Positions 18,647 through 36,844 of a stretch of DNA of 64,000 nt are shown piece after piece. Both the position numbers and the translations under genes were made by a program. How positions within the stretch are numbered: position 1 is the first letter of the stretch; each line of letters opens with the position of its first letter. Under the pieces are notes generated by a model. It was not told the DNA's origin, searched no databases, and saw nothing but the letters and a program-made list of their open reading frames with translations. Source of the stretch: Desulfolithobacter dissulfuricans (GTDB taxonomy: Bacteria; Desulfobacterota; Desulfobulbia; Desulfobulbales; Desulfobulbaceae); NCBI RefSeq assembly GCF_025998535.1, contig NZ_AP024233.1, positions 248,001-312,000 on the forward strand, read 5' to 3'.

Positions 18647-21600
18647 TCAGATTGGCAGGACGCGGACGCGGGTGGAGCTGAAATCCGGGATCCCGGCCTG
18701 GACATCGACCATGGGCAGGTTGCCCAGGTGGTCGTCCCGCCGGGAGATATCGTTGGGGTTTATGCCCCTGCCCCGGCGGGGATCAGGGATCAGGACATCG
18801 CCTGAAACTACTCTGGAACCGCCCAGAAAGACAGATTGTCCGTCCTTCACCTCCACCCGGCCCGCACCATGGTAGGTGTGGCCGTAATGGAAGGAGATAG
18901 CCAGGCAGCCGGGACGGATGAGTCTTGTGGTCTGCACCTGTCCGGTAATGCCCCGGGGTGTGCTCCTGGAAACCAGCCGTACCCTGTCCCCGTCCTGTAT
19001 TCCCAGGTTGCGGGCATCGTCGGCGTGCATGACGATATGGTTTTCAGGGAAGATTTCCAGGGCCGCGGGGTGGTTGATGGTCCGGGACTGGGTATGGACG
19101 TTCATCTTGTGGGTGACCACCTGGAAGGGATAGTCCCGGTCTTTTTCAGCCACCACATCGCCGGCCGAGTCGGTTGGTGGCCAGTAGTGGACTGTACCGG
19201 GGTAGCGCTCGCCGGTGAGTGCGTTTCTGGCCGCGGCCATCTCTTCATTGAAGAGCACCACCCGTTTAAGGCCATGTTTGAATTTCTGTCCGTCAAACTG
19301 GTCCTGGTATCTGGCAAAGATGCCGCCGCGGGCCAGGGCATGGCAAAGGGTTTTCCACTGCGGGTCCGGCAGGATGTCCCGGTATCTGGCCACGGGGTAG
19401 TTGGCTTCCACGAACCGCTGTTCTTCGGGCGTGGCAGCCGGCAACCCACCATTGGCAGCAATGTTGGCAAAGCCCCTGAGGTAAAAGTCCTCGCCCCGGA
19501 ACAGGGGATGGAGGTTGCCCTCCCGGTCACCGATGGCCCTGGCGCCAAAGCCCGGCAATCCCAGGTGGTTTGCCAGGTCGATGAGAAAGGTTTCCAGGCA
19601 GAAGGGTCTGCCGTCCGCGGTCCTGGTGGTGAGTGGTTCGATGAGCGGGGTGCGCAGGGCGGTGAACCGGCAGGCTGGTGCATGGGGATGGATCCAGCCG
19701 TAATGCCCTTCAGCCCAGGTCACGTCCGGGATAATGTAATCGGCAAAGATATTGGATTCGTTGATCGTCGTGTCGATGGAGACATAGAGCGGCACCCGGT
19801 CCGGGTCGGCCAGGGTCTCTTTATACCGGGATCCGCCGGGGGTGGAATAGACCGGGTTGTAGAAGTAGTGGAACAGTACCCGGCACCGGTAGGGATAGCC
19901 GGCATCGATACCGTTCATGGTCTCGACACTGAGGCCACCCCTGGTGAAGGTGAACCAGGGACGGCTGGCCGGGTAGCCGCTGCCTCCCTGTTCCTTCCGG
20001 CGGCGGAACTCAGAGCTCTTTTCGTAGACCGCCTTTTCCCGGGAGAGCATTACCCCGCGGGGCTTGCGCCGGCCGGGGAACTTTTTCAGATCATAGAGCC
20101 CCCTGTGCCAGGCAGCGACCTTGCCGCCGGAACTCAGGTAGCCACCGCGCATCTCGATGGAACCTGTCATGACGTTCAACAGGGCAATGGCATAGGCCGC
20201 ATAGGTGCCGCAGAGGTAGTTGCCGGCCCCGTGGTACTGGCACACCGCCGCCCTGAACCCATGGGCGGCGAACTCCCTGGCCGTGCGGGCGATCTTTTCG
20301 GGCGCGATACCGCACCACGAACCATACTCCTCCAGGGTATGGGCCTGCACTGCTTCCCGCATGAGCCTGAAACCGGTTTTGACCAGGACCCGTTCGCCGG
20401 TAGCCAGGGTGAGATGTCGTTCCTGGTCGAGCATGGCCCGGTCCACGGTGTCAAAGGGAATCGGGCTGCCATCTGCCGGGTCCAGGACCACGTAGCGTTC
20501 ATCGGCCTTACTGTTGCCCGACGGAACCAGGTCGCCCAGGCGGAGAAAGGTCTGGCTACGCTCATGGCCCGGCTCGACGATGACCAGGTGGGTGGCGTTG
20601 GTGTAACAGCCATGGCCCAGTTTGTCCGCGGCCGCCGGACAGGGAGCCTGGAGGTATGCCCGGTCATAGGCCCCGTGGTCGATCATCCAGCGCAGCATAC
20701 CCATGGCCAGGGCCCCGTCCTGGCCCGGCTTGACCGGCAGCCAGTCGTCGGCATGGACAGAACCGTTCTGGGCCCGGGGATCGACGATCACAAGCCGGAC
20801 TTCACCCCGGGCATGCCGCCTGGCGATGGCCGCGCCATAGGTGTTGATCCCGGGCTGGAGGGCCTCGTAGATGTTGGCCCCGAACACCAGGATATATTCG
20901 GCCTCCCAGGGATTGGCCTTGAGTTCCCACTGTTTTTTTTCGCTCAGGGCAAAGTTGCCCATCCGGAAGCCGATTCCGCAGATATCGGTGTGGCCGACCC
21001 GGTTGATGGAGCCCATCGCGTCCTTGACAAAGCGGTTGATGAGAGCCTTGCGGCCGGTCTGCAGTCGGCCGGTCATGAAGACAAAGGTGTTGCGCACCGG
21101 TCCCAGCTCCGGGGCCCGGGGATCGATGGGTTCATCACTGTTGAGCTCGGCCAGGCCGGGGACGTGGCGGTCCTCGCCAAGGTGGCCAAACAGCTGGCCG
21201 CCCTCACTGATTTCCCGGATCAGCTGCTCCCATTCGATGGGCTCGAACTTGCCTTCGCCCCGGCGCCCGGCCCGCTTGAGTGGTCGGACGATCCGGTACG
21301 GGTCATAGACTGCGCCCAGGGCGTCGTGGGCCTTGCCGCAGACCGGGCTTGGTTTGTCCAGGACCCGGTCCACCGGGGTGTGGTAGGGTTCCGGTTCTCC
21401 CATGTGATTGTACGGGTGGTAGGGGTTACCGGCTATCTCCCTGAGCACGCCGTCCTGCACGGTTGCCCGGACACCGCAGCGGCCATTGCAGCTCAGACAG
21501 ACCGAAAAGACGGTCCTGGTGTTGCCTGGTTTCCCATGCTGGAGGGTGCGGGGGTTGAGCCAGGATTTTTTTTCCTGTGTCCCGGCTCCGGCCCTGGGCG

Positions 21601-21697
21601 GAACCATGAGAGTGGCGGCCGCGGCGGCCGAACCGGCCAGCAGCTCCCGGCGGGAGAAGGAAGTTTTTTGTTGTTGCATGTTTCGTTTACTGCTCAC
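18647..21697 (-). CDS. ttrA: TtrA-like molybdopterin oxidoreductase, catalytic subunit
   Basis: 1016 residues with a Tat signal (SRRELLAGSAAAAATLMV). The [4Fe-4S] motif CLSCNGRCGVRA is at about 68, with the fourth Cys in PVCGKAHDAL. A Cys in HTDICGIGFRMGNFAL is the probable Mo ligand. The overall pattern is closest to the tetrathionate reductase TtrA/SrrA branch of the DMSO reductase family; the substrate (tetrathionate, polythionate, selenate or arsenate type) cannot be fixed from sequence alone. The start is GTG at 21697, with GGAGG before it and a four-base overlap with ttrB. No NrfD-type TtrC membrane subunit is adjacent, so electron input is unclear. Confidence 0.82.
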   Translation of the reverse strand: MSSKRNMQQQKTSFSRRELLAGSAAAAATLMVPPRAGAGTQEKKSWLNPRTLQHGKPGNTRTVFSVCLSCNGRCGVRATVQDGVLREIAGNPYHPYNHMGEPEPYHTPVDRVLDKPSPVCGKAHDALGAVYDPYRIVRPLKRAGRRGEGKFEPIEWEQLIREISEGGQLFGHLGEDRHVPGLAELNSDEPIDPRAPELGPVRNTFVFMTGRLQTGRKALINRFVKDAMGSINRVGHTDICGIGFRMGNFALSEKKQWELKANPWEAEYILVFGANIYEALQPGINTYGAAIARRHARGEVRLVIVDPRAQNGSVHADDWLPVKPGQDGALAMGMLRWMIDHGAYDRAYLQAPCPAAADKLGHGCYTNATHLVIVEPGHERSQTFLRLGDLVPSGNSKADERYVVLDPADGSPIPFDTVDRAMLDQERHLTLATGERVLVKTGFRLMREAVQAHTLEEYGSWCGIAPEKIARTAREFAAHGFRAAVCQYHGAGNYLCGTYAAYAIALLNVMTGSIEMRGGYLSSGGKVAAWHRGLYDLKKFPGRRKPRGVMLSREKAVYEKSSEFRRRKEQGGSGYPASRPWFTFTRGGLSVETMNGIDAGYPYRCRVLFHYFYNPVYSTPGGSRYKETLADPDRVPLYVSIDTTINESNIFADYIIPDVTWAEGHYGWIHPHAPACRFTALRTPLIEPLTTRTADGRPFCLETFLIDLANHLGLPGFGARAIGDREGNLHPLFRGEDFYLRGFANIAANGGLPAATPEEQRFVEANYPVARYRDILPDPQWKTLCHALARGGIFARYQDQFDGQKFKHGLKRVVLFNEEMAAARNALTGERYPGTVHYWPPTDSAGDVVAEKDRDYPFQVVTHKMNVHTQSRTINHPAALEIFPENHIVMHADDARNLGIQDGDRVRLVSRSTPRGITGQVQTTRLIRPGCLAISFHYGHTYHGAGRVEVKDGQSVFLGGSRVVSGDVLIPDPRRGRGINPNDISRRDDHLGNLPMVDVQAGIPDFSSTRVRVLPI

Positions 21698-22365
21698 GGG
21701 GTCCTCCTGCTTGCCTGGCGATGGGGGATGTAGCGTACCGCCGCTCCGTCGGTCCGGTCGGAATCCCGGAGCGTGAGTTGCGGGGCCCTGAGACAACGGG
21801 CGAATTCTCCCGCCGGTCTCAGGAGATCACCGAACAGCCGGGCTCCGGAGCTGCAGGCTTCCACACAGGAGGGAACACCACCGGCCACAAGACGGTCCAG
21901 GCAGAAGTCACACTTGTCCACCCTGTTGCCGTGGGCCGGGTCGGCAAACCGGGCCCCGTAGGGACAGGCTTCGATGCAGTCGCCGCATCCGTCGCACCTG
22001 GACCAGTCGGTAACCACCACGCCGTTGTCGAGATGGAAGGTGGCCTGGCGATCGCAGGCGGCCACGCAGGACGGGTCCTCGCACTGGTTGCACTGGATGG
22101 GGGTAAAGAGCAGGCCGCGCCCCCGGGCAAAGACCTCCTCCCGGATCAGAATACGGGTGTTGAACTGGTTCCTGGCGGTGTGGTTCCGGTTTTTGCAGGC
22201 AATGACACAGGACTGGCAGCCGGTACAGCGGTTGAGGTCGATGATCATGCCCCAGCGTACCGGTTGCTCCCTGTTCCGGTCCTGCCCTGCCAGGACTGGC
22301 TTGAGCCCGGCCGCGCCCAGGAGCAGGGCGCCGCTCTGGACTAGGAACTTTCTCCTTTCTTCCAT
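21694..22365 (-). CDS. ttrB: TtrB-like four-cluster ferredoxin subunit
   Basis: 223 residues, Tat-type N-terminus (ERRKFLVQSGALLLGAAG). Four Cys groups give 16 cysteines for four [4Fe-4S] clusters: CTGCQSCVIAC, CNQCEDPSCVAAC, CDGCGDCIEAC, and CDFC...PSCVEAC. This is the electron-transfer subunit of a periplasmic molybdoenzyme. Ribosome site GAGGAGG. It overlaps ttrA and follows the transglutaminase gene by 76 bases. Confidence 0.88.
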   Translation of the reverse strand: MEERRKFLVQSGALLLGAAGLKPVLAGQDRNREQPVRWGMIIDLNRCTGCQSCVIACKNRNHTARNQFNTRILIREEVFARGRGLLFTPIQCNQCEDPSCVAACDRQATFHLDNGVVVTDWSRCDGCGDCIEACPYGARFADPAHGNRVDKCDFCLDRLVAGGVPSCVEACSSGARLFGDLLRPAGEFARCLRAPQLTLRDSDRTDGAAVRYIPHRQASRRTP

Positions 22366-22441
22366 CTCGTTCCTCCTCGTGGTGCTCACGGGAAACGGAC
22401 TTGCTGTCCAGGCCGGGGCGGAAATCCCGGCCTGGCACCAT

Positions 22442-23452
22442 CTAATCCTGGGTATAGGTGAACTTGTAGGCAAAGGAGCCCGGATCGAGCCAGTCCAGCG
22501 GCGTCCCGTTCACTTCGGCGTACGGATAGCCAAAGGTGTTGAGCGGGCCGGCCTGCTGGCGCGGGTTGAGGACGAGATCCCGGCCCACGGCCAGCTGGAC
22601 CCGGTACGGATCCCAGGCGCCCCAGAAATACTGGCGGTACTCGGTGGTTTTCGGATCATCCAGCGACAGGTTTTCCTTGAGCATCATTTTGCGGACATCG
22701 GCCGGATCCACCGGCACCCAGCCGTAGCCCGGCAGGTAGAACTCGGCCCAGCAATGCTGCCAGGTGGTGATGTCCTGCAGCGGTTTTTTGCCCATGCGGA
22801 TCCCCAGGATCTCGCGGGCCGGCACCTCGGCAGCCCGGGCCAAAGCGACAAAGACCGAGTGGATGTCGGTGCATTTTCCGCCAGGCTTTTGGAGCAGGCT
22901 GCAGACATCGCCCTTGCCGCAGCCCCGGGTGCTGGGATCCCGGTACATGTTTTCACAGGTCCAGTCATAGATCGCCTTGGCCTTGGCCAGGATCGTGGTC
23001 TTGCCCCGGGTTATTTTGTCGGCCAGCGCCTTGACCGACCCGGTAATGGGCCCCAGGCTGGTAGGCTGGAGCCACTGCTGGAACGCGGTCCGGTCCCAGC
23101 ACGGCTCACGGGCCGGAAAGTCCCGTTTCACCACTTCCTTGCGTACCGCGTGGAAAGAGAGGGTGAGATGGCGGGCATCCTCGCCCGGCTTCCAGCGGGC
23201 ATAGAGTATAGGTGTCTTGAATTTCTGATCGGTGTAGACTGCAGACTCGGCAAAATCCCCTTCCACCTTGATGTCGGTAATTAACTGGTTCTGGTCCGAG
23301 ACCGGGTAGGGAATCCAGAGCCTGACCTCCTGGTTGGCAGGATGGTGGGACAGGTTGAACTCCATGACAATGGTCCCCGAGGCTGTGGTGGCCGATGCCA
23401 GGGCCGGGAGAAAGAGGATGGACATGGTGAGCAGGACAAGCAGTTTTTTCAT
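22442..23452 (-). CDS. Exported transglutaminase-like protein
   Basis: 336 residues with a signal peptide (MKKLLVLLTMSILFLPALASA). The transglutaminase/papain-like triad is visible: Cys in GGKCTDIHSVFVALAR (about 196), His in TTWQHCWAEFYLPG (about 235) and Asp in VPVDPADV (about 248). Such proteins can cleave or cross-link peptides in the periplasm. It is first in a transcription unit with ttrB and ttrA, so it may help assemble or process that enzyme; this is inference from position. Confidence 0.82.
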   Translation of the reverse strand: MKKLLVLLTMSILFLPALASATTASGTIVMEFNLSHHPANQEVRLWIPYPVSDQNQLITDIKVEGDFAESAVYTDQKFKTPILYARWKPGEDARHLTLSFHAVRKEVVKRDFPAREPCWDRTAFQQWLQPTSLGPITGSVKALADKITRGKTTILAKAKAIYDWTCENMYRDPSTRGCGKGDVCSLLQKPGGKCTDIHSVFVALARAAEVPAREILGIRMGKKPLQDITTWQHCWAEFYLPGYGWVPVDPADVRKMMLKENLSLDDPKTTEYRQYFWGAWDPYRVQLAVGRDLVLNPRQQAGPLNTFGYPYAEVNGTPLDWLDPGSFAYKFTYTQD

Positions 23453-24048: not shown

Positions 24049-24573
24049 TCAGTGGCGTTGCTGCTGATTGTCTCGGTTGCCCGGTGTGCTCCGGACGGTT
24101 CCTGTCCGGCTGGAACCAGGCAGCGAACCTGTGACCAGTTCACTGACCTGTTCGGCCAGTACGAGCATGTCCGCGATCTCTGCCATGGAGGGCGGGTCGA
24201 TGTGATAGGTGTCCAGGTCACATATTTCCTGGTGCCTGTCCAGGGCCAGGAGTCGTTCCCGCATGGTGTCGATGGCGCCGGGAAACGTCTGGTCCATGGC
24301 CTCCACCAGGTCGTGCATGGTGTGGTTGTAGGGCAGGGTGCCATGGAACATCAGCGCGGCCATGAAGAATTTTTCAATGGCCATGGCGACGAGGTTGTAG
24401 AGGATTTCCGTTGTGAAGATGTTCCGGCGCCTGGCATAGCCTCCCCGGGCAGTGGCCAGGTACTGGTGGCCTTCTTTCAGAAAATCCTCCCAGTCGTCAA
24501 TGGGTTGTCTCCTGATGCCATCCAGCGGTATCATGTTGGCGCCGGGAGACGGGGTGCGGACTGTATCGGTCAT
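24049..24573 (-). CDS. HEPN-like protein of the nif operon
   Basis: 174 residues, helical. The middle segment (LYNLVAMAIEKFFMAALMFHGTLPYNHTMHDLVEAMD) follows the HEPN pattern (AxEKxxxAxLxxxGxxxxxxHxxxxLV), but no RxxxxxH nuclease motif is evident, so it is probably non-catalytic. The C-terminal tail is Ser/Arg/Gln-rich. Its ATG is one base after the GNAT stop codon, so translation is coupled. The role in nitrogen fixation is unknown. Confidence 0.68.
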   Translation of the reverse strand: MTDTVRTPSPGANMIPLDGIRRQPIDDWEDFLKEGHQYLATARGGYARRRNIFTTEILYNLVAMAIEKFFMAALMFHGTLPYNHTMHDLVEAMDQTFPGAIDTMRERLLALDRHQEICDLDTYHIDPPSMAEIADMLVLAEQVSELVTGSLPGSSRTGTVRSTPGNRDNQQQRH

Positions 24574-24574
24574 G

Positions 24575-25033
24575 TCAGATCTCCTTGCAGAGGCAGATAA
24601 GTCTTGTTTTGTGCCAGCCCTGGTGGCTGTAAAAGCCAAGCGCCGGCTGGTTGTTCCGGTCCGCGAGGAGCTGCAGGCGGGACGCGCCCCTTCTGCGGGC
24701 CCAGGCGGCCAGTTCCTCGAGCAGGCGACTGCCCACCCCGCACCGATGGTGCCCGGGCAGCACAACCACATCCTCCACCACCACCTTGGGCCCGCCAATG
24801 GCAGTGGAAATGAGTAGCTGGCCAGTGCACATGCCGATCACCCGGTCCTGTAGCTCGGCCACCAGGATGACGGCCTCCTGGCTGTCAAGGAGCAGGCCAA
24901 GGCCCTGGCGCTGCAGTGCCTCGTCAAAGCTGAAATCCTCCTCGATGGAAAAGAGGAGCTCGAGCAGGGCGGTCAGGGCCGGGAGATCCGCAGCCCGGGC
25001 CGGACGGATGATGAATGGTTGGGGGCGGCCCAT
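24575..25033 (-). CDS. GNAT-family N-acetyltransferase
   Basis: 152 residues covering one GNAT domain: IIRPARAADLPALTALL at the start, acetyl-CoA loop VLPGHHRCGVGSRLLEELAAWA (RxxGxG/A variant CGVGSRL) near 95, and the final strand ALGFYSHQGWHKT. The substrate is unknown; the position between a ferredoxin and a HEPN-like gene in a nif operon suggests a nitrogenase-linked role such as small-molecule or lysine acetylation. ATG 25033 lies 10 bases after the ferredoxin stop. Confidence 0.85.
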   Translation of the reverse strand: MGRPQPFIIRPARAADLPALTALLELLFSIEEDFSFDEALQRQGLGLLLDSQEAVILVAELQDRVIGMCTGQLLISTAIGGPKVVVEDVVVLPGHHRCGVGSRLLEELAAWARRRGASRLQLLADRNNQPALGFYSHQGWHKTRLICLCKEI

Positions 25034-25043
25034 GGTCGTCCGC

Positions 25044-25349
25044 TCAGGCTGACAGCAGGTATTCTGCCGCCGGTTCACCATCTTCCAGGCCGTCGAGAAT
25101 CGTATCGATGGCCTCTTCACTGTTGACACCCTTGAACCACCAGTTTTCCGGCTGGATAACCATAATCGGCCCCTTTTCGCACTGCTTGAGGCAGGTGGTG
25201 GCCGTGACGAGACAGTCCAGTCCCCGGTCCAGCAGCTCTTCCTCCAGGTACTGTAAAAAGCCGTCGGTCTGCTTGTGACAGAGGCCTTTTTTGTCTCCGT
25301 CCACACGGAAACTCTGGCACAAAATGATCTGGCGTTCTGGTCTTGCCAT
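25044..25349 (-). CDS. Thioredoxin-like [2Fe-2S] ferredoxin
   Basis: 101 residues. Cysteines are arranged C-x12-C (LCQSF...GLCHK) and then C-x3-C (TTCLKQCEKGP), as in the thioredoxin-like [2Fe-2S] ferredoxins found in nif clusters of Clostridium, Azotobacter and others. These interact with the MoFe protein or serve cofactor assembly rather than general electron transfer. It follows the NifB-like gene by 126 bases. Confidence 0.88.
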   Translation of the reverse strand: MARPERQIILCQSFRVDGDKKGLCHKQTDGFLQYLEEELLDRGLDCLVTATTCLKQCEKGPIMVIQPENWWFKGVNSEEAIDTILDGLEDGEPAAEYLLSA

Positions 25350-25475: not shown

Positions 25476-26630
25476 TCATGCCGGCTGTGCGCAACCCTGT
25501 TTTTTCTTACCGCCACCGTAGAGCACGTCCACGGTTCCTTCGATGTTGTCCTCCATGGTCAGGACTCGTATCCCCAGGCTCGCCAGGACCTTTTTCGGGG
25601 CCTCACCGGCATGGGCGGCCAGGAGGGCGAAGCAGTCCTTGAGGCAGGCCTCGGCGAGGGTCTCCCAGCGCGAAGCGCCTTTTTCCGTGGCCGGGACCGG
25701 CCGGGCTTCCAGCAGACAGGTGAGGCCGTCTTCCCTGGGGCCGTAGATGAGGATGCGATCCGCCTGGCCAAGATGAAGGTCGATCTCCATGCCGCTGCCA
25801 CTGACCACCGCCACATTGGGCCGCTCCCTGGTCGGCCTGGGCAGGATTGGTCCGGGGAAGGCAGCAGCTGAATCTGCATTGTCCGACAACGGGTCTGGCT
25901 GTTTTTCCTCCCTGAGGATGGTCACCTCAAGATAGTTGGCGCACTGTTTCCCGAGCTGGTCGAGCCGGGCCTCGTCCAGGGCTCCGGGTCCTTCCTGGTC
26001 TTCGCCGGGCGGGGAAAAGGGCACCAGGGTCATGGAGGAGGAGCCAAGACCGGCCATGTGCCGGGCTATCTCCTCCACCTGGTCCTCGTTGATCCCCGGG
26101 TAGACCGTGGTCCGGACATGGACCCTGATACCATGCCTGGCCAGCGTCTCCACGGCTTTGCGCTGTTCGGTTACCAGCAGGGCCGTGGACTGGGGCAGGG
26201 GGATGGTCCGTCTGCCCGGGCGGATCCAGGCGTAGAGGTCGGCTGCCGTCGCCGCCTCCAGGGTATCCACCAGGAGTGTCGCCTCGCTGACTCCCCTGGC
26301 CGCCAGGTCCGCCGCGTGGTCGGCCGCGCCCAGGCCCAGGGTGGTCAGGGACAGCTCCATTTCCGGATATAGGCTCCGGAGAAGCTCCAGGGTCTCCAGG
26401 GTCGGTTCGATGTCGGCCAGGGGATCACCCGGCCCCTCGAGGATGACCCGGCGAATATCCCGGCCTTCCTCGAGCAGCGATTCCAGGTAGCTCATGGCCT
26501 CACCCGGGCGCAGGGCCCCGGTTACCCTGGCCATGGGAAGGAAACGGATCCGGTTGTTGGCCCGGGCCGCCATCGGCAGGGTCAGCCGGGGTTCCGGGGG
26601 CCGGGTTGCGGGAAAGGGAAGAATTGTCAT
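25476..26630 (-). CDS. NifB-like protein lacking radical-SAM cysteines, with NifX-like C-terminus
   Basis: 384 residues. It can be laid along NifB of this window throughout: LEGPGDPLADIEPTLETLELLRSLYPE against AGPGDPFANGDETLETMRLIRREYPE, LYAWIRPGRR against IYSWVRDGRV, HGIRVHVRTTVYPGINEDQ against HGITVKINTIAIPGVNDHH. Where NifB has CNIQCNYCNRKYDC, this protein has RANNRIRFLPMARV: all cluster cysteines are gone, as are the later CTRC ligands. The C-terminal 110 residues (VAVVSGSGMEIDLHLGQADR) keep the NifX/NafY-like cofactor-binding fold and end with KKKQGCAQPA. It cannot be a radical SAM enzyme; a cofactor carrier or NifB regulator is plausible. ATG 26630 has GAGG eight bases upstream. Confidence 0.85.
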   Translation of the reverse strand: MTILPFPATRPPEPRLTLPMAARANNRIRFLPMARVTGALRPGEAMSYLESLLEEGRDIRRVILEGPGDPLADIEPTLETLELLRSLYPEMELSLTTLGLGAADHAADLAARGVSEATLLVDTLEAATAADLYAWIRPGRRTIPLPQSTALLVTEQRKAVETLARHGIRVHVRTTVYPGINEDQVEEIARHMAGLGSSSMTLVPFSPPGEDQEGPGALDEARLDQLGKQCANYLEVTILREEKQPDPLSDNADSAAAFPGPILPRPTRERPNVAVVSGSGMEIDLHLGQADRILIYGPREDGLTCLLEARPVPATEKGASRWETLAEACLKDCFALLAAHAGEAPKKVLASLGIRVLTMEDNIEGTVDVLYGGGKKKQGCAQPA

Positions 26631-26681
26631 GGTCATTACCTCGGGAAAACAGGGGAACACCTGGCCTGCCGGAGTCCGGGA

Positions 26682-26726: not shown

Positions 26727-28100
26727 TTAGAGAACGAGCTCAAAGCTGGTTTCAGGATCGTCACGATCCTTGCGGTCCAGCAGGGCGCCGAGGATTTTCT
26801 CCAGCAGGCGGATACCGCCCTTGTAGCCAACGGTGGGGAAGTACTGGTGGCCCTGGCGGTCCAGGATCGGGAAGCCCCAGCGGACCAGCGGGATATCCTC
26901 GTCCCGGGCGATGTACTTGCCGTAGGTGTTGCTGATGAGCAGGTCCACCGGCTCGTTTTTCATCCACTGGTGGAGCAGGAAGAGATCTCCCTTGGCCTTG
27001 ACATTGACCTCGCAGGGCAGTCCCTCGGTGATCTCACGGATCCGTTTTTCGAACTTCTTGCCCGGCGTGCCGGTGACGATGTGCACCGGCAGCATGTCGA
27101 TGGAGACCAGGAACTCGGTCATGGCGATGACCTGGTCGGGATCGCCGGCAATGGCCACTTTCTTGTGGTAGAGGTACTGGTGCATGTCGGAGATCAGGTC
27201 CAGCAGCTGGCCGCGCTCGCGGGCCAGGCTCTCGGGGACCGAAACCCCGGCGACGGTGCGCAGGGTATCGACGAACCGGTCGGTGGCCTTGAGGCCAAAG
27301 GGCATGTCGATGACCGTGCAGGGGACCTTGCACTGCTTGTCCAGTTCCCGGGCCGCCTCGCCGGAGCACCATTCGCCAAGGGCAAGGGTACCCACCGCAT
27401 CACCGGTGGCCTTGAGTTCCTCGATGGTGGTGCCCCCTTGGGGAAACATGCTGAATTTCCCGGTCAAAGGGCCGTTGAGCACGCCGGACGTATCCGGAAA
27501 CAGGATGGTATCTATCCCGAGCAGACCGGTTATCCGTTTGATCTCTTCCATGTCCGCCGGCTCGACCCAGCCGGGGATGATGTTGACCTTGCCGTTTTTT
27601 TTGCCGGTGTTCTCGGCCAGCTCGGTCATGGCCTTGACCATGGTAGAGAAGCCGGTCACGTGGGAGCCCACGTAACTCGGGGTCGAGGCGCAGAGAACGT
27701 ATTTGTTTTTCGGGATTTTACCTTCAGCGTATCCTTTCTTGCGGATCTGCTTGAGGTCGTCACCGATGGTCTCGGACAGGCATGTGGTATGCACGGCGAT
27801 GACATCTGGATCATAGATGGTGAAGATATTGTTGAAGGCCTGCATCAGGTTGGCCTGGCCCCCGAAAACCGAGGCACCTTCGGTGAAGGAGCTGGTGGCT
27901 GCGGATACGGGTTCCTTGTAATGCCGGGTCAGGGTGCTGCGGTGATAGGCGCAGCAGCCCTGGGAACCATGACTGTGTGGCAGGCATCCGTGGATGCCGA
28001 GCGCCGCGTACATGGCACCGATGGGCTGGCAGGTCTTGGCCGGATTGATGGTCAGGGCCTTGCGCTCGGATATTTCTTTTGGTGTATGTCTCAGTAGCAT
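26727..28100 (-). CDS. nifK: Nitrogenase MoFe protein beta subunit NifK
   Basis: 457 residues; with NifD forms the MoFe protein. P-cluster ligands are in TCQPIGAMYAALGIHGCLPHSHGSQGCCAYHR (about 22-53) and HTTCLSETIGDDL (about 107). The C-terminus retains RWGFPILDRQGHQYFPTVGYKGG. It is the short NifK type without the N-terminal extension of proteobacterial NifK, as expected for group II/III anaerobe nitrogenases. GAGG precedes the ATG. It lies 132 bases after nifD, a gap holding a perfect palindrome. Confidence 0.97.
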   Translation of the reverse strand: MLLRHTPKEISERKALTINPAKTCQPIGAMYAALGIHGCLPHSHGSQGCCAYHRSTLTRHYKEPVSAATSSFTEGASVFGGQANLMQAFNNIFTIYDPDVIAVHTTCLSETIGDDLKQIRKKGYAEGKIPKNKYVLCASTPSYVGSHVTGFSTMVKAMTELAENTGKKNGKVNIIPGWVEPADMEEIKRITGLLGIDTILFPDTSGVLNGPLTGKFSMFPQGGTTIEELKATGDAVGTLALGEWCSGEAARELDKQCKVPCTVIDMPFGLKATDRFVDTLRTVAGVSVPESLARERGQLLDLISDMHQYLYHKKVAIAGDPDQVIAMTEFLVSIDMLPVHIVTGTPGKKFEKRIREITEGLPCEVNVKAKGDLFLLHQWMKNEPVDLLISNTYGKYIARDEDIPLVRWGFPILDRQGHQYFPTVGYKGGIRLLEKILGALLDRKDRDDPETSFELVL

Positions 28101-28232: not shown

Positions 28233-29873
28233 TTATTCCCACACGTAGGCACCGGAGAGCTGGGGGTTCTCCTGCCATGGAGCCTTCATGTAGCTCCAGA
28301 CCCGGCTGTTGACCAGCCGGTCGATCTCGTTGTAGAAGTTGATGGCGCCCTTGAAACCGGCATAGGGACCGCCGGAGTCATAGCTGTGGAGCTGTTTCAT
28401 GGGGATGCCCAGCTTCTGGATGGAGAACTTCTCCTTGATGCCGGCGCAGAAGATGTCGGGCTTCATCAGTTCCACCAGTTTTTCGGCCTCGTACTGGTTC
28501 AGGTCGTCGATGACCAATGTCCCCTCTTCCATATCCGGCAGCAGCCCTTCGTAGGACTTGAACTTGAGTCCTGCTTCTTCCAGGGCCTTGAGCTCCTCGG
28601 GGGTCTTCCGCGGCCGGTAACGGGTCTCGTCCGGTTCCACCTCGATTTCCTCGATGTTGCGGCTGTCCGCGTCCACCTTGAGCTTGGGCAGAACGTGGCG
28701 GCCCTCGTAGTCGTCCCGGTGGGCGAACTCGTAGCCGGCCGAGATGGTTTTCATGCCCATCTCCTTGAACAACTCCTGGTAATGATGGGCCCGGGAGCCG
28801 CCGACAAAGATCATCGCCGTCTTGCCACTGGTCCGCGGCAGAACATCCTCCTGGGCCGCCTTGACCGCCGGCATCTCCTCTTCGATCACCTTTTCCACCC
28901 GGTCGATGAGCTCCTGGTCACCGAAATAGGCGGCGATCTTGCGCAAGCTCTTGGCCGTGGCCTCGGCGCCGATGAAGTTGACCTTGACCCAGGGGATACC
29001 GAACTTGGTCTCCAGCATGTCGGCCACGTAGTTGATGGACCGGTGGCACATGACGCAGTTCAGATCTGCCTGGTGCGAGGTGGCGAACTGGTCATAGGTG
29101 GAGTTGCCGGAAAAGGTGGCCACGTTGGTGATCCCGCATTTCTTGAAAATACGGTCGATCTCGAATCCGTCGCCGCCGATGTTGTATTCGCCCAGCAGGT
29201 TGATTCGGTACTCGCCTTCCTGCGGTTCGTCGTTGGTGCCGACGATATGGCGGAACACCTGGTTGTTGGCGATGTGATGACCGGCCGACTGGGAAACACC
29301 CTTGTACCCCTCGCAGGAAAAGGCAAACACGTTGCAGTCACCGAACTTTTCCTTCATCTTCCTGGCCACGGTGTGGATGTCGTCGCCGATGAGTCCGACC
29401 GGACAGGTGGCAAAGACGGCGATGGCCTTGGGATGAAAGGTGTCGTAGGCTTCCTGGATGGCCATCTCCAGCTTCTTCTCCCCGCCGAAGATGATGTCCG
29501 AATCCTGCATGTCGGTGGAAAAGGTGTAGTTCATGTACTGCTCGCCGTCTTCACCGGCATCGGTCTGGTTGCGCCGGGTCAGCCAGGCATAGAAGCTGCA
29601 GCCGATGGGGCCGTGTACCAGGTTGACGATGTCGCGGGTGGGGCCCAGGATAACGCCCTTGCAGCCGGCGTACGTGCAGCCGCGCATGGTAATGATGCCG
29701 GGAATGGTCCTGACGTTGGCCAGGATCTCCGGGGTGTCGTTTTCAAGGGCTTCGTTTATCAGTATCTGTCTGGCCCGCTTCCGGGCAACCTTGGGCGGAT
29801 ATTTCTTGAGCAGTTCCGCCTTGATGTCAGTGGGATCCCACTGCACCGGTTTTTTTTCAGGTGCTGTTGTCAT
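28233..29873 (-). CDS. nifD: Nitrogenase MoFe protein alpha subunit NifD
   Basis: 546 residues. It binds FeMo-co and shares the P-cluster with NifK; this is the site of N2 reduction. P-cluster Cys: MRGCTYAGCKG, GPIGCSFYAW and FATCPVGLIGDD. The FeMo-co Cys lies in the region DLNCVMCHRSINYV/ATFSGNSTYDQF and the FeMo-co His in QLHSYDSGGPYAGFKG near the C-terminus. Residues about 395-450 hold a charged insert (KLKVDADSRNIEEIEVEPDETRYRPRKTPEEL), a feature of the longer NifD of anaerobes. The absence of an anfG/vnfG gene and the presence of nifEN support a Mo enzyme. Confidence 0.97.
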   Translation of the reverse strand: MTTAPEKKPVQWDPTDIKAELLKKYPPKVARKRARQILINEALENDTPEILANVRTIPGIITMRGCTYAGCKGVILGPTRDIVNLVHGPIGCSFYAWLTRRNQTDAGEDGEQYMNYTFSTDMQDSDIIFGGEKKLEMAIQEAYDTFHPKAIAVFATCPVGLIGDDIHTVARKMKEKFGDCNVFAFSCEGYKGVSQSAGHHIANNQVFRHIVGTNDEPQEGEYRINLLGEYNIGGDGFEIDRIFKKCGITNVATFSGNSTYDQFATSHQADLNCVMCHRSINYVADMLETKFGIPWVKVNFIGAEATAKSLRKIAAYFGDQELIDRVEKVIEEEMPAVKAAQEDVLPRTSGKTAMIFVGGSRAHHYQELFKEMGMKTISAGYEFAHRDDYEGRHVLPKLKVDADSRNIEEIEVEPDETRYRPRKTPEELKALEEAGLKFKSYEGLLPDMEEGTLVIDDLNQYEAEKLVELMKPDIFCAGIKEKFSIQKLGIPMKQLHSYDSGGPYAGFKGAINFYNEIDRLVNSRVWSYMKAPWQENPQLSGAYVWE

Positions 29874-29887
29874 CTATCTTCTCCTTG

Positions 29888-30262
29888 TCAGGCAATGGCT
29901 GTCTCGCCGGTTTCTCCGGTCCGTACCCGGACGGAATCCTTGACCGGCAGGACAAAGATCTTGCCGTCTCCAGGCTTGCCGGTCTGGTTGGTTGCGATGA
30001 TAGCCTTGACCACGTCTGGAACTTTGTCATCCGGAACCACGGCAGTGATCATCCGCTTCGGATACAGCTTGCCTTTCTCGCCCAGCAGGGCCGCGGCTTC
30101 CTCGTATCCTTCCTCGACGCCCTGAAGGAGCTGCGGATTAACAAAGCCTTTGCCCCGGCCCTGGGCCTCGTGGGCGAAGAAGGCGTCGATCCCGGCGTCG
30201 GTCAGGGCCTGCTTGGTCTGGTTCATCATGTTGATGCGCACAACGGCGATGACCTCTTTCAT
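29888..30262 (-). CDS. nifI2: PII-like nitrogenase regulator NifI2
   Basis: 124 residues, PII fold. NifI1 and NifI2 form a heteromer that inhibits dinitrogenase directly when ammonium rises; 2-oxoglutarate and ATP relieve it. The T-loop region carries an insertion typical of NifI2 (HEAQGRGKGFVNPQLLQGVEEGYEEAAALLGEKGKLYPKRM), and the C-terminal PII signature is [22 protein letters not shown]. It overlaps nifI1 by four bases and sits 14 bases before nifD. Confidence 0.95.
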   Translation of the reverse strand: MKEVIAVVRINMMNQTKQALTDAGIDAFFAHEAQGRGKGFVNPQLLQGVEEGYEEAAALLGEKGKLYPKRMITAVVPDDKVPDVVKAIIATNQTGKPGDGKIFVLPVKDSVRVRTGETGETAIA

Positions 30263-30615
30263 GATGCCACCTCTTCTTCGGCCGGGGTATCGTCTTCCCT
30301 GGTGCCACTGCTGATGGTATAGACCTCCTCGACTTCGGTCACAAAGATCTTGCCGTCACCAAAAGCGCCGTTGGGGCTGGTGCGGGCCGTGTCCATGATG
30401 GTCTGGATGACGAAATCCTTGTCCTCCTCGTTCACCACGCTCATCAGCATGGTTTTCGGAATTTCATCGTAGGTGACGTCGCCGATCTTGATGCCGCGCT
30501 GTTTGCCGCGTCCGGCAACGGCGTACTTGGTTACGGCCGGGTATCCCGCGTCCATGAGGGCGGCGAGGACTTCATCGGCCTTTTCCGGCCGGACAATTGC
30601 TCTGATCATTATCAT
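30259..30615 (-). CDS. nifI1: PII-like nitrogenase regulator NifI1
   Basis: 118 residues, partner of NifI2 in post-translational switch-off of nitrogenase. It has the PII core (MIRAIVRPEKADEVLAALMDAGY...AFGDGKIFVTEVEEVYTISSGTRE) and a NifI1-type T-loop (GRGKQRGIKIGDVTYDEIPKTML) without the uridylylated Tyr context of GlnB. GGAGAG precedes the ATG. Confidence 0.95.
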   Translation of the reverse strand: MIMIRAIVRPEKADEVLAALMDAGYPAVTKYAVAGRGKQRGIKIGDVTYDEIPKTMLMSVVNEEDKDFVIQTIMDTARTSPNGAFGDGKIFVTEVEEVYTISSGTREDDTPAEEEVAS

Positions 30616-30687
30616 GATTTCTCTCCAGATTGAGTTGGGATGGACCAGACAACCAGGCCTGGTCAGGTGTAAATAGGGGTGCTCTCA

Positions 30688-32708
<2,021 letters not shown>

Positions 32709-34100
32709 ATGGACCAAATCAAACTCTACAACGTGGAACGTATTGTCAGCCTCATCACGGATCAGACCAAAACGGTGCGAAAGCATTGCAATGCTGATAA
32801 CTTTATCCGAGTATTGCGCCGATGTTTTCAGGCGATCCCTGATCACCGCCAAGTCAGCAAAACGAGCATCTCCCTCGATGATGCTCTCATGTCAGCATAC
32901 GCCATGTTCTCCCTCAAGGATCCCTCGTTGCTGGCTTTTGAAAATCGACGTCTCAACGAGGCCGAAAATCTGCGTGCCGTATTCGGTATCGAAAACATCG
33001 CCTCCGACACCCAGATGCGGGAAATCCTCGATCCTCTTTCGCCGCGTGAATTCAGATCAGGTTTTACCGCGGTATTCCGCATCCTCCAGCGCGGCAAAGA
33101 CCTCGAAGCCATGACCTGTCTGGATGGACACTACCTGATCAGCGGTGACGGTACCGGTTTCTACTATTCGACAAAAGTCGGCAATGATTTCTGCCTCAGA
33201 AAGAAACAGGAAAACGGTAAACATGCCTACTACCAGCAGATGTATGGAGCAGCCATTGTCCATCCTGACAAACGGGAAGTCATTCCCTTCTGTCCCGAAA
33301 TGATCAGCAACCAGGACGGCACCAGCAAGCAGGACTGTGAGCGGGCTGCTGCCCAGCGTTTCTGGCGAGAGTTCCGTCGCGAACACCCTCATCTTCCAGT
33401 CATCGTCACTGAAGACGCTCTGAGCAGCAATGCACCGCATATACGGGAGCTCAAGGCCTTGAACCTGCGTTTCATTCTTGGTGTCAAACCAGGTGACCAT
33501 CAGTTTCTGTTCGAGCAGTTCGATGCCTCTGTCGAGACGGGTAAAGTGACGGAATTCAACATGGATGATCCCAGGGATCCAAAGAAATATCATGTCTTCC
33601 GCTACGTCAATGGCCTGTCCCTGAACAAGTCCAACCAGGATCTGAAGGTCAACCTGCTCGAGTACTGGCAAGCTGACGACAAGGGCAATGAACTGCGGTT
33701 TGCCTGGGTGACCGACCTGGAGATCACCAGGGAGAACGCCTATGAGATCATGCGGGCGGGCCGGGCCCGGTGGCGTATCGAAAATGAGACGTTCAATACC
33801 TTGAAGAACCAAGGGTATCATCTGGGACACAACTATGGCCTGGGGGCACAACATCTTTCAATGGTATTCACCACTCTGATGGTGCTGGCGTTTCTGGTTG
33901 ACCAGGCTCAGCAGCTGGGATGCTGGCTTTTCCGCAAGGCCTGGGAAGAGTCCAGAAGCAAACGTCAGCTCTGGGAGAATGTCCGTAGTCGATTCAGGGA
34001 ACTTCCTGTAGACTCGATGGAAACACTCTACCGGAGCATTGCTTTTGGCATCAAGGGGTACGTCGTCGAGGTGATCGAACCTGACGATGTGATGACCTGA
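32709..34100 (+). CDS. IS4-like DDE transposase
   Basis: 463 residues. The DDE catalytic core is visible: first Asp in LISGDGTGFYYS (about 147), second Asp in PVIVTEDALSSNAPH (about 237), and Glu in RWRIENETFNTLKNQGYHLGH (about 357). The last carries the Y/W-x2-R-x3-E-x6-K spacing of IS4-related enzymes. The frame is intact from ATG 32709 behind AGGAG. I could not define terminal inverted repeats by eye, so no element limits are given. Confidence 0.85.
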   Translation: MDQIKLYNVERIVSLITDQTKTVRKHCNADNFIRVLRRCFQAIPDHRQVSKTSISLDDALMSAYAMFSLKDPSLLAFENRRLNEAENLRAVFGIENIASDTQMREILDPLSPREFRSGFTAVFRILQRGKDLEAMTCLDGHYLISGDGTGFYYSTKVGNDFCLRKKQENGKHAYYQQMYGAAIVHPDKREVIPFCPEMISNQDGTSKQDCERAAAQRFWREFRREHPHLPVIVTEDALSSNAPHIRELKALNLRFILGVKPGDHQFLFEQFDASVETGKVTEFNMDDPRDPKKYHVFRYVNGLSLNKSNQDLKVNLLEYWQADDKGNELRFAWVTDLEITRENAYEIMRAGRARWRIENETFNTLKNQGYHLGHNYGLGAQHLSMVFTTLMVLAFLVDQAQQLGCWLFRKAWEESRSKRQLWENVRSRFRELPVDSMETLYRSIAFGIKGYVVEVIEPDDVMT

Positions 34101-34322
34101 CCCGCCGTCAATCGGTGGGCTATATCAAAGAGCACGACCTGCCGCAAACAGGAGCGGCAAGGTAAGGGTGCAACTATGCTTAATTGTCAGGATATATCCC
34201 TTTTTTGGTTAACAACTTGGCGCATGATGGCGTGATCAAAGCGAAATAGCTTTACCGTCCCCTTGGGTGAACATAAATCTGCGCCTACCATGGCTCAGAA
34301 TGCCCTTCACCGGGAATAGCTG

Positions 34323-35003
34323 ATGGAGCCTTTAACAGTTCCTTTAGCTTTCACGGCGACTCTGGCAACAGATTATGCAAAAATTGAACGTGAGGCAAAG
34401 GGCTACCATGCAACCATGAAAGAAGAAGCAGGGAGTTTCAAGGAACTACTTGATTCATACAAATTAGAAGCAGAACAAGCTCTACAAGCAGTCAAAGATC
34501 AAGCTGCAGAAGCAGGTGTGGCAACAAACGCTCAAATATTTCTAACGGACTCGGAAAATCATGGCAGTACAGCAAAAAAATGGCTTACAGCAACAATTTG
34601 GTCTTCAATTGTCACTCTTGTAGTTGCCGTAATCTTCGTTGTAATCAGCTTCAATTACCAACCTGCAAACACTGCGGCTGCAATACAATATGTCGTCAGT
34701 AAGTTGATCTTGCTCTCAACCTTATCATTCGGCATTTTCTGGTGTGCCAGAAATTACAAATCAAGCAAACACAACGAAACACTCAACAAACATAGGGCAA
34801 ATGCTCTCATGACATTCAGGGCGTTTGTTGAGGGTAGTGGCGAGCAACAAATTAAAGAAGCAATTCTCCTTCAAGCTGCCCAAGCAGCGTTTGTGAACCG
34901 TCCAACTGGTTATGAAGGGCAGGAAAAAGAATCCCAGAGTATAAACCCAGTTGTGGAGATATTAGGTAAAACTGTTGCTAAATCAGCAAGTTCCGCTCAA
35001 TAA
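34323..35003 (+). CDS. Two-helix membrane protein of unknown function (possible integron cassette)
   Basis: 226 residues. An N-terminal coiled-coil region (about 20-70, KIEREAKGYHATMKEEAGSFKELLDSYKLEAEQALQ) is followed by two transmembrane helices at about 95-115 and 125-142, and a cytoplasmic helical tail with NKHRANALMTFRAFVEGSG and AQAAFVNRPTGYEGQ. The tail motif recurs, as I recall, in conserved hypothetical membrane proteins of many bacteria. Base composition is AT-richer than the nif genes. Its stop is 12 bases before the left half of a split attC site, as for a gene cassette. Possible N-terminal loss from the neighbouring IS cannot be excluded. Confidence 0.6.
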   Translation: MEPLTVPLAFTATLATDYAKIEREAKGYHATMKEEAGSFKELLDSYKLEAEQALQAVKDQAAEAGVATNAQIFLTDSENHGSTAKKWLTATIWSSIVTLVVAVIFVVISFNYQPANTAAAIQYVVSKLILLSTLSFGIFWCARNYKSSKHNETLNKHRANALMTFRAFVEGSGEQQIKEAILLQAAQAAFVNRPTGYEGQEKESQSINPVVEILGKTVAKSASSAQ

Positions 35004-35015
35004 AGAAATAAAATG

Positions 35016-35023
35016 CAGTTAAC
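35016..35023 (+). other. Left half of a split attC site
   Basis: CAGTTAAC resembles the R'' box (RYYYAAC with one mismatch) of an integron attC site. Joined to 36778-36844 it gives GTTAAC-AAATCGCTCCAGC..., a normal attC left arm. The IS1111-like element lies between the two parts. Confidence 0.55.
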
Positions 35024-35216
35024 ACCTAGAAGGCCCACGCTTGTCAAGACGCAAAAGTAAATAGAAGCGATTTTTTCATCACTTTCAGCCGAAGGCTGAC
35101 TGATCTTTGAAAACGCCCTGTCTTGGGTTTCATATTCGGTGACAGCAATTCTGCACCAAACACCTATTGAGGATCAACCATCCCGCCAGCAGGAAAGGAG
35201 TTGGTTTTCACTCGAA

Positions 35217-35283
35217 GCGGATAATCTGTCCGGTCGAGAATGGGCCCAACAACTGCTCGTCGGAGACCGGACAGATTATCCGC
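35217..35283. other. 19-base perfect inverted repeat in IS non-coding end
   Basis: GCGGATAATCTGTCCGGTC and GACCGGACAGATTATCCGC flank a 29-base loop. A smaller stem, GCTGCAAGC-AGG-GCTTGCAGC, follows at about 35309. These could be parts of an IS110-family bridge RNA or a nested small element. Confidence 0.6.
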
Positions 35284-35642
35284 GAACTTGCAAGCAGTTC
35301 CTGCCGGGGACAGCTGCTGCAAGCAGGGCTTGCAGCGTCCTGGAAACGATCACGTACCCTCATGCCGTCCCAGTCAAAGAAGCGTGGTCATGCAAAAACT
35401 CAGCATGCCGGAGTTAGTGTCGGGTTCGGGGGAGGAGCAGAACCATATCAAAGAATCAGTATGTAAACGGAGCAGGACGGACGGCCAATCAAAGCAACTG
35501 GCTGCCGAGATGCGGCATAGCACCGATCAGTGTGGTTTCACCACATGATGCGTCTTCATCAATATCCGGTGCAGATACATGCTCGCTGAAAAACAACAAC
35601 GGTGGCTCCAGTTAGACATCCGGTTCATCCGTCCCCTCCAGC

Positions 35643-36686
35643 TCATGCGGCAAGAAATCTGTTCATATCAAACCCCTGTCTGTTTTTGAGCATGAAGTAC
35701 ACGGCCCGCCCCAGCTTGTGGGCCAGGATGGACAGGCCCTTGCCCTTGCCGTGCTTACTGGTGATCTTCTGGAGATAGCGCTGCCCCCGCTCGTTACCCT
35801 TGAGAAAAAGCTGCGCGGCCTCTGAAAAAGCCCAGCGCAGATGGGCATTGCCGATCTTCCTGCCGGCTGTGCCATACTTTTTGCCATTGGACTCCTTGGC
35901 GCACTTGACCAGGCGGCAGTAGGAGGCAAAATCCTGCACCCTTGGAAAACGGTCGATATCCTCGATCTCATAGAGCAGGTTCAGAGCAATGATGCGACCC
36001 ACGCCAGGGATGGTCTTGAGCAGGGCATAGGCCGTGGAGTCATGCTCTTTGGCACTTTTGATGATTTCCTGCTCGAGTACAGCAAGAACCTGATCATAGG
36101 TATCGATCATGTCCAGATTGGCTGCCACCGACATCTGGACTGCCGGATCATCGAAGCGCTCAAGCAGGTTCTCCCGGTTCTTTGCCTTGGCGATCCGTCC
36201 CAGGGGGAGCTGAAGGTTGTACTGACTGGCCGTGTTCTGTATGTGGGCCAGCAGTTCAGCCCGCTTGCGCATTAGATGATTACGCCTCCGCATCAGGTCA
36301 CGGGTTGCCCGCATCTTCCTGGGATAGACATAGGCCATGGGGATCAGTCCTCCTTTCAGCAGGGCAGCTATCTTGTGGGAGTCGATCTTGTCGTTCTTGC
36401 TCTTGCCGCCGTGGATGGCCCGCATGTAGAGGGCATGACCCAGGACAAAGGGAATCCCCTCGTCCGCGCAGAGATCGGCGAGCCAGTACCAGGAAAACAT
36501 GCACTCCGCACAGACGACGATGTCCTCCCGGAAAGGCTCTAGCACTCTGAGGAAGGTCTCCGGATTGGTTCTGATATTCCGGTGCAGGACAATCTCTCCT
36601 TCCCGGTTGAGGATGCAGAGATACATTTTGTTGGTGTGGAGGTCTATTCCGCAATAAAAATCATGCTGTTTGGTGTAAAATCTCAT
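35643..36686 (-). CDS. IS110-family (IS1111-like) DEDD transposase
   Basis: 347 residues. The N-terminal RuvC-like DEDD domain shows YCGIDLHTNKMYLCILN (first Asp), VCAECMFSWYWLADL (Glu) and SKNDKIDSHKIAALLKGG (Asp pair). The C-terminal Tnp_20 domain has LLKTIPGVGRIIALNLLYEI and the Ser-region FPRVQDFASYCRLVKCAKES. It recombines via a Ser/DEDD mechanism guided by a bridge RNA in characterised relatives. ATG 36686 follows AAGGAGG; a TTGCTG...TATAAT-like promoter lies just upstream. Confidence 0.93.
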   Translation of the reverse strand: MRFYTKQHDFYCGIDLHTNKMYLCILNREGEIVLHRNIRTNPETFLRVLEPFREDIVVCAECMFSWYWLADLCADEGIPFVLGHALYMRAIHGGKSKNDKIDSHKIAALLKGGLIPMAYVYPRKMRATRDLMRRRNHLMRKRAELLAHIQNTASQYNLQLPLGRIAKAKNRENLLERFDDPAVQMSVAANLDMIDTYDQVLAVLEQEIIKSAKEHDSTAYALLKTIPGVGRIIALNLLYEIEDIDRFPRVQDFASYCRLVKCAKESNGKKYGTAGRKIGNAHLRWAFSEAAQLFLKGNERGQRYLQKITSKHGKGKGLSILAHKLGRAVYFMLKNRQGFDMNRFLAA

Positions 36687-36777
36687 GAGAAGGCCTCCTT
36701 GCGTTGAGGTTGTTTGTGTTCTACTTCCATTATAGCAGCAACGGGCTGCCGGGAGCGAGGGGGCCTTCTCTATTATC

Positions 36778-36844
36778 AAATCGCTCCAGCTGACCGCCAA
36801 TCCTCTGCGCTCCTTTGCGGCAGCTGAGCTCAGCCGTTATGCGT
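36778..36844 (+). other. Right half of attC site
   Basis: AAATCGCTCCAGCTGACCGCC, a short variable loop, GCGGCAGCTGAGCTCAGCC and the R' box GTTATGC. GCTC(C)AGCTG(A)CCGC pairs with GCGGCAGCTGAGC leaving extrahelical bases on one strand, as in folded attC sites recognised by integron integrases. The following gene starts inside the GTTATG core. Confidence 0.65.

Follow-up and report, generated by a model that had tools for sequence, protein, structure and literature searches.

A stretch of 64,000 nucleotides of Desulfolithobacter dissulfuricans DNA (the window) encodes, besides a true NifB, a conserved NifB paralogue with a dead radical-SAM barrel, which we call NifBx. The existence of such a cysteine-less paralogue had been proposed from the letters of the DNA, and profiles, BLASTP, an alignment and motif counts confirmed it: the gene is a real minus-strand open reading frame of 384 amino acids (26630–25476 in the ORF list of the window), and its product is a full-length NifB paralogue. 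A GTG at 26660 is a possible alternative start; a GAGG lies just before the ATG at 26630. The true NifB with its cysteines lies at 14308–15585 on the minus strand and scores 385.7 bits with TIGR01290 (nifB), above the curated cut-off of 343.65. BLASTP aligned the two proteins with 28% identity over 382 columns (E 2e-49). The sequence-only reading let this likeness run from the GPGDP motif to the NifX-like C-terminal domain; the likeness begins earlier and spans residues 15–373. TIGR01290 matched NifBx with E 3.5e-30 and 105.1 bits, below the cut-off, and gave 173.6 and 163.6 bits for two divergent orthologues. PF02579 (Nitro_FeMo-Co/NifX-like) was matched with E 5.8e-8 and 33.4 bits, above its cut-off of 26.3, and PF04055 (Radical_SAM) with E 4.8e-6 and 27.3 bits, slightly below its cut-off of 29.5. 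The nifX model TIGR02663 found no match in the window NifBx at E ≤ 1, and searches of Pfam and NCBIfam yielded no dedicated model for the protein. Two places in the window genome match NifBx at E 0.001, namely its own locus and the true NifB. An assembly artefact was ruled out, as the window genome is a single contig and orthologues come from many assemblies.

NifBx consists of a degenerate radical-SAM barrel (residues 15–240; 25911–26588, minus strand), assigned by model and fold comparison, which lacks Cx3Cx2C and retains GPGD, Q156 and N181, and of a NifX-like C-terminal domain (residues 266–376; 25503–25835, minus strand), assigned by the PF02579 score and by conserved residues. The latter carries an HLG motif (H286), R310, R321-W322 and D332-C333 and continues into a basic GGGK tail; in alignments the residue encoded at 25773–25775 (minus strand), H286, stands opposite H312 of NifB and opposite the histidine in the HFG of the NafY core. 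No cysteine of NifBx stands opposite NifB C12, C32, C36, C39, C45, C112, C220, C259, C262, C281 or C285 in the alignment. These 11 include the Cx3Cx2C cysteines and the CxRC pair, and the reported loss of the cluster cysteines is therefore correct. NifB C358, in the NifX-like domain, corresponds to C333 in the window NifBx, and a tail cysteine aligns with C411.

Motifs were counted as simple text patterns, wherever they fell in a protein, for 86 NifBx sequences (the window copy, 80 named loci and five from the phylum search, L163 and L165–L168), with 27 NifBs as reference; locus L164 (genome G381), which has a NifBx frame with two matched stretches ∼100 bp apart and an untrimmed start, was excluded. 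Cx3Cx2C and Cx2CRxDAxG are each present in 0/86 NifBx and 27/27 NifB sequences. HPC occurs in all 27 NifBs and in five NifBx sequences (L097, L109, L115, L126, L163), the window copy not among them, and TxTxN in 2/86 versus 22/27. ExRP was found somewhere in 18 of the 86 NifBx proteins and in every NifB; at the aligned place E48, R50 and P51 are retained in NifBx at 0.00, and retention over the NESRPG stretch is 0.00–0.01. AGPG is left in 17/86 and GPG in 82/86 (both 27/27 in NifB), and HLG, the motif of the NifX-like cofactor histidine, was found in 86/86. A cysteine stands at the place of C39 in 16% of NifBx sequences, at that of C12 in 49% and at that of C262 in 6%. Among 62 barrel positions that are invariant in the 27 NifBs, 26 are retained in <10% of the 86 NifBx sequences, including C32, C36 and C45, and nine in ≥95% (A29, G84, P85, G86, D87, A90, G117, Q174, N199); in NifBx numbering, GPGD, Q156 and N181 are retained in ≥95% of the 86. 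For the NifX-like part the figures are 14 of 24 NifB-invariant positions retained in ≥95%, including H312, R336, R347, W348, D357 and C358, and six in <10%. At least three K/R are found in the last 16 residues of 85/86 NifBx proteins. L163, whose neighbours in the tree are Desulfovibrionaceae, has HPC and GRxH and lacks Cx3Cx2C; it looks like an intermediate and so speaks for the descent of NifBx from a NifB. Judged by these residues, NifBx is a catalytically dead NifB, predicted to be unable to bind the known radical-SAM cluster.

A structure model built with 49 orthologues had a mean pLDDT of 89.2, with the linker and the tail poorly predicted. The modelled barrel matched the NifB structure 7jma with Z 29.6 and rmsd 1.6 over 213 residues, and four NifB structures (7jma, 6y1x, 7jmb, 7bi7) ranked above all other radical-SAM chains (next Z 19.4). 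According to the model, the N-terminal part keeps the NifB-type barrel fold. The model of the window NifB was poor (pLDDT 68.7) and was kept out of the comparison. Fold searches barely covered the C-terminal domain, which resembles the NafY core 1p90 weakly at the sequence level, with E 0.53 for the single sequence and 0.0033 when a profile was used; H286 falls on the HFG histidine of 1p90 in that weak alignment. A retained NifX-type cofactor histidine was found throughout: HLG occurs in all 86 sequences, and a histidine occupies the aligned place in 81/81.

We searched 96 genomes and found NifBx in 51 of them, the window genome included, with E 4e-72 or better (the match in G020 is partial); NifB matches in the same search had E 3.8e-51 or weaker. 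Nine genomes gave NifB-type matches only, three of these being <90% complete; 35 gave none, and one (G057) gave a fragment that is probably NifBx. NifB is also seen in 48 of the 51 NifBx genomes; no NifB match was found in G014 or G023, and the one in G088 is confined to a C-terminal piece where a contig ends. Because nine of the 96 genomes have NifB without NifBx, NifBx is an accessory factor that is not needed everywhere, not a core one. Orthologues recur outside the order of the window in families f29, f54 and f91 (395 genomes across the phylum). A single-protein scan of named genome contigs gave no match; a profile scan gave 117 loci, partly from the same genomes as the 96, and the best 80 were kept. 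Labels of these best 80 of 117 are Desulfobulbaceae (38), Desulfocapsaceae (9), Desulfovibrionaceae (4), Desulfobacteraceae (2), Desulfurivibrionaceae (1) and Desulfarculaceae (1), with 25 lacking a family label; cable bacteria (Candidatus Electrothrix, Electronema) are among the Desulfobulbaceae. NifBx is thus kept by sulfate reducers and bacteria related to them; culturable strains from the profile scan include Pseudodesulfovibrio pelocollis and Desulfobulbus rhabdoformis. NifBx may also occur beyond the phylum of the window. A tblastn search of plasmids returned 29 records, all <60% identical; the 20 listed, compared by identity and label, are called nifB, 'radical SAM protein' or nothing. 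Spread of NifBx on plasmids was set aside as a reading after this search.

NifBx and NifB form the two sides of one branch with SH-aLRT 100 in a tree built from 39 sequences of the former and 27 of the latter (quick search without bootstrap, midpoint root, with long rows L165 and L102), and NifBx copies with more NifB-like N-termini attach closest to NifB. The branch of the window NifBx measures 0.61 versus 0.10 for the window NifB. The dN/dS of NifBx had a median of 0.191 and a maximum of 0.291 in 89 close pairs, which are non-independent as many share rows; nifK in the same pairs was mostly <0.1, and nifB, with 0.05–0.08, was below NifBx in all four pairs compared. Divided by domain, the barrel had a median of 0.198 (maximum 0.44) and the NifX-like part one of 0.107 (maximum 0.24), with the barrel exceeding the NifX-like part in 87/92 pairs. 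Mean pairwise identity among NifBx sequences is 0.65 in the NifX-like part versus 0.44 in the barrel, and 30 columns, start Met included, are invariant in 49 sequences. The low dN/dS of the barrel indicates that the dead barrel itself is held by selection, although less than its neighbours. A lone decayed gene was ruled out by the 51/96 genomes, the best 80 of 117 loci and the low dN/dS. The cysteine-less forms are thus a conserved clade under purifying selection (one side of a branch with support 100, Cx3Cx2C in 0/86, median dN/dS ∼0.19), and not one decayed copy among relatives with cysteines, the finding that the sequence-only reading had named as speaking against it.

NifBx follows directly on nifK (26727–28100, minus strand; gap 96 bp; from the ORF and locus comparison) and is itself followed by fdx (25044–25349, minus strand; gap 126 bp), which encodes a small [2Fe-2S] ferredoxin-like protein. 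Upstream of nifK, in the same direction, are the genes that we take, by likeness, to be nifD, nifI2, nifI1 and nifH (28233–31512, minus strand; ORF list, with the nifH start read from the sequence). The fdx product matched PF01257 weakly, at 13.5 bits, and was below the cut-offs of NF041612 and NF041613. The order nifH, nifI1, nifI2, nifD, nifK, NifBx, fdx recurs in 55 of the 80 loci (best 80 of 117), many others being cut by contig ends; one of the 55, L089, has nifK 4.9 kb from NifBx. On the same strand, nifK is upstream of NifBx in 74 of these 80 loci, at a distance of no more than 234 bp in 73. L091 starts where its contig starts, and 6–10 kb of upstream sequence contained no nifK in L100, L101, L113, L124 or L133. 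The expected linkage of the clade to nifK is borne out by the 73/80 adjacent loci. As for fdx, it follows NifBx in 78 of the 80 (the L062 sequence stops after another 73 bp, and no fdx was seen in L136), and the NifBx–fdx pair is intact in the six loci without adjacent nifK (L089, L100, L101, L113, L124, L133). NifBx–fdx pairs that lie 5 kb from nifHDK, or have no nifHDK in view, were seen in Desulfobulbaceae loci, cable bacteria included. However, nifK loci from seven of the nine NifB-only genomes have fdx as the next nif gene in five (the contig ends in G042, and none was seen in G068), and fdx comes next after nifK in four of seven more distant loci without NifBx. The linkage to fdx that had been proposed is therefore real, whereas its specificity is not upheld in these order relatives (5/7), and the idea of fdx as a NifBx-specific partner is weakened by both sets (5/7 and 4/7).

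Several neighbouring reading frames were named by eye or from translations. A GNAT-looking, acetyltransferase-like ORF (window about 24575–25033, minus strand) recurs after fdx, and before nifE where that is visible, in L152, L153, L163, L166 and L167, with and without NifBx; a small HEPN-looking ORF after fdx (about 24049–24570, minus strand) is also seen in L150, L151 and L152. The two nif operons of the window are separated by a large ORF that resembles molybdopterin oxidoreductases and by a ferredoxin-like ORF (18647–22473, minus strand), and in L063 only about 2 kb separate fdx from nifE. Two transposase-looking ORFs are located upstream of the nifH operon (32709–36800).

We also looked for expression signals, using the σ54 −24/−12 consensus and the NifA-type TGT-N10-ACA motif. 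A σ54-like site with two mismatches to the consensus precedes nifH (31590–31605, minus strand), and a TGT-N10-ACA motif match lies 97 bp upstream of it (31703–31718, minus strand). Such pairs, with the TGT-N10-ACA site 60–200 bp upstream, occur at two places in the window, one ahead of nifH and the other ahead of nifE; two or more pairs were found in 3/60 random sequences with matched dinucleotide composition, and either motif alone is no more frequent than by chance. A further σ54-like match lies inside nifD on the plus strand (29321–29336). On the minus strand we found neither a σ54-like nor a terminator-like site from nifH to fdx; the scanned stretch has a single terminator-like site, which is upstream of nifH. 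From this we infer that NifBx is likely cotranscribed with nifHDK.

With a conserved dead NifB paralogue established, the question is what it does. We put at roughly even the chances that NifBx is a pseudoenzyme which carries the cofactor and helps to assemble nitrogenase, similar to NafY or NifX and derived from a nifB gene. This role appears likeliest because a histidine and two arginines are kept in the best-conserved domain, the known cluster cannot be bound and the gene lies beside nifK. NifBx descends from a duplicated nifB gene. Its radical-SAM cluster site is gone, as are the remaining cluster cysteines known from NifB, and its NifX-like domain has retained the cofactor histidine. Probably transcribed with nifHDK, the protein would carry the anionic [8Fe-9S-C] NifB-co or the finished FeMo-co, held by H286 with the aid of the conserved R310 and R321, and the dead barrel would serve as docking module for NifDK, NifEN or NifB; a docking domain joined to a histidine-bearing core would then work like NafY. 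Homology, the missing cysteines, conservation, nif linkage and the barrel fold are observations, and cofactor binding, partner, cargo and direction of transfer are inferences. The earlier interpretation as an assembly factor, which may be a cofactor shuttle, a NifB decoy or a chaperone, is partly supported: the conserved clade, the linkage, the selection and the histidine speak for it, and the specificity of fdx does not. More tentatively, and with the odds somewhat against it, NifBx could represent a new class of assembly factors: a synthase-derived pseudoenzyme whose barrel mimics NifB docking and which takes NifB-co or FeMo-co to the nitrogenase encoded by the neighbouring genes, as an alternative delivery route in anaerobic diazotrophs including cable bacteria.

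The nifY gene adjoins nifK in gamma-proteobacteria, and NifY is not known to have a barrel. NifY shares the NifX-like domain with NifBx but lacks the cofactor histidine, according to the available part of PMC13128457; that this nifK-adjacent protein has no histidine counts against the carrier reading. The same partial source describes NifY and NafX as keeping the NifX fold without the histidine, which means that transport cannot be deduced from the fold by itself, and reports that H35 of NifX ligates NifB-co and that the C-terminal domain of NifB is NifX-like (PMC13128457). With NifB itself NifBx has in common the domain order, the barrel fold, GPGD and the NifX-like residues at 28% identity, whereas Cx3Cx2C, Cx2CRxDAxG, NESRPG and TxTxN are NifB features that are lost or nearly lost. 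NafY resembles NifBx in being built of two domains and in carrying an H(F/L)G histidine in the second; however, its N-terminal domain (N-NafY) is all-helical whereas that of NifBx models as a dead NifB barrel, and NifBx is a candidate for the binding of apo-NifDK and FeMo-co that is known of NafY. In the accessible text of PMC8496260 the N-domain of NafY binds apo-NifDK and H121 of its core ligates FeMo-co, and MoFe protein that lacks its cofactor is purified together with NafY and NifY according to the portion available of PMC6016461. NifX has a PF02579-type domain and the cofactor histidine like NifBx, but is small and single-domain, while NifBx has two domains and the window copy is missed by TIGR02663 at E ≤ 1. 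The C-terminus of Azotobacter NifX binds a positive patch of NifE, whereas the tail of NifBx is itself basic, which again speaks against the carrier reading.

A 2017 survey dropped 28% of 390 putative NifBs, most of them without Cx3Cx2C; each had a NifX domain and was taken as a probable NifX, as stated in the part available to us (PMC5715403). NifBx proteins may be among them. No two-domain dead NifB paralogue is described in the accessible portions of PMC5715403, PMC3464626 and PMC7341956, nor did we find a description of NifBx in the literature searched, which was seen in part and comes mostly from outside the subscription journals. Counts of nifB-like matches overestimate active NifB. The route of the labile cofactor through NifB, NifEN and NifDK is a matter of current study, which in the literature cited here deals mostly with Azotobacter. 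If a non-catalytic NifB does serve in carriage or docking, it would reveal NifB surfaces that are important in transfer, could be a cluster-free NifB substitute for structural work and might aid nitrogenase transfer into new hosts.

Other explanations share part of this evidence. That the whole barrel is retained under selection (median dN/dS 0.198), with GPGD, Q156 and N181 in ≥95% of 86 sequences, would also suit a regulatory pseudoenzyme that pairs with NifB, or competes for NifX or NifEN, and tunes NifB-co output without transport; the available text of PMC5715403 describes NifB from Azotobacter and from Klebsiella as a homodimer. We consider such a partner unlikely, as the most constrained part is the NifX-like domain and not the barrel, the cofactor histidine is kept and the gene adjoins nifK in 73/80 loci. 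The constraint on the barrel argues in turn against a plain NifX-type shuttle that brings NifB-co from NifB to NifEN with the barrel as a useless remnant. H286 in its NifX-like domain would fit this shuttle, as would the lack, within the window, of a separate small NifX gene among the seven PF02579 places of the genome, but TIGR02663 does not match the window NifBx at E ≤ 1 and some genomes have a small NifX-like gene as well as NifBx; we judge it improbable to a similar degree. Since such a gene lies near nifB in some genomes with NifBx, NifBx is more than a substitute for an absent NifX.

An electron-transfer or cluster-delivery adaptor formed by NifBx and fdx in nitrogenase maturation would explain why fdx is downstream in 78/80 loci and why the pair stays intact in six loci without adjacent nifK. 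It is quite unlikely, because fdx follows nifK without NifBx in 5/7 order loci and 4/7 distant ones and therefore has its own job. Simple decay after duplication would account for the faster evolution of NifBx than of NifB (branch 0.61 versus 0.10 and the higher dN/dS in four pairs) and for its absence from some relatives, but it is highly improbable given dN/dS ≤0.29 in 89 pairs, 30 invariant columns in 49 sequences and the presence of NifBx in several families of the phylum. The carrier and assembly role is the reading that we prefer to these.

Other proteins with a NifX-like domain are encoded in the window genome, two of them with HFG, so that another carrier may be present. Seven places match PF02579 in this genome. 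The five outside the window comprise four small or middle-sized ORFs, which include the two with HFG, and one larger ORF; they are located away from nif genes (G000:C1:911840-918643, 1360741 and 1957869). In locus L076, where NifBx is also present, a small NifX-like gene after nifB (19859–20173) matches TIGR02663 with E 2e-10, below the cut-off.
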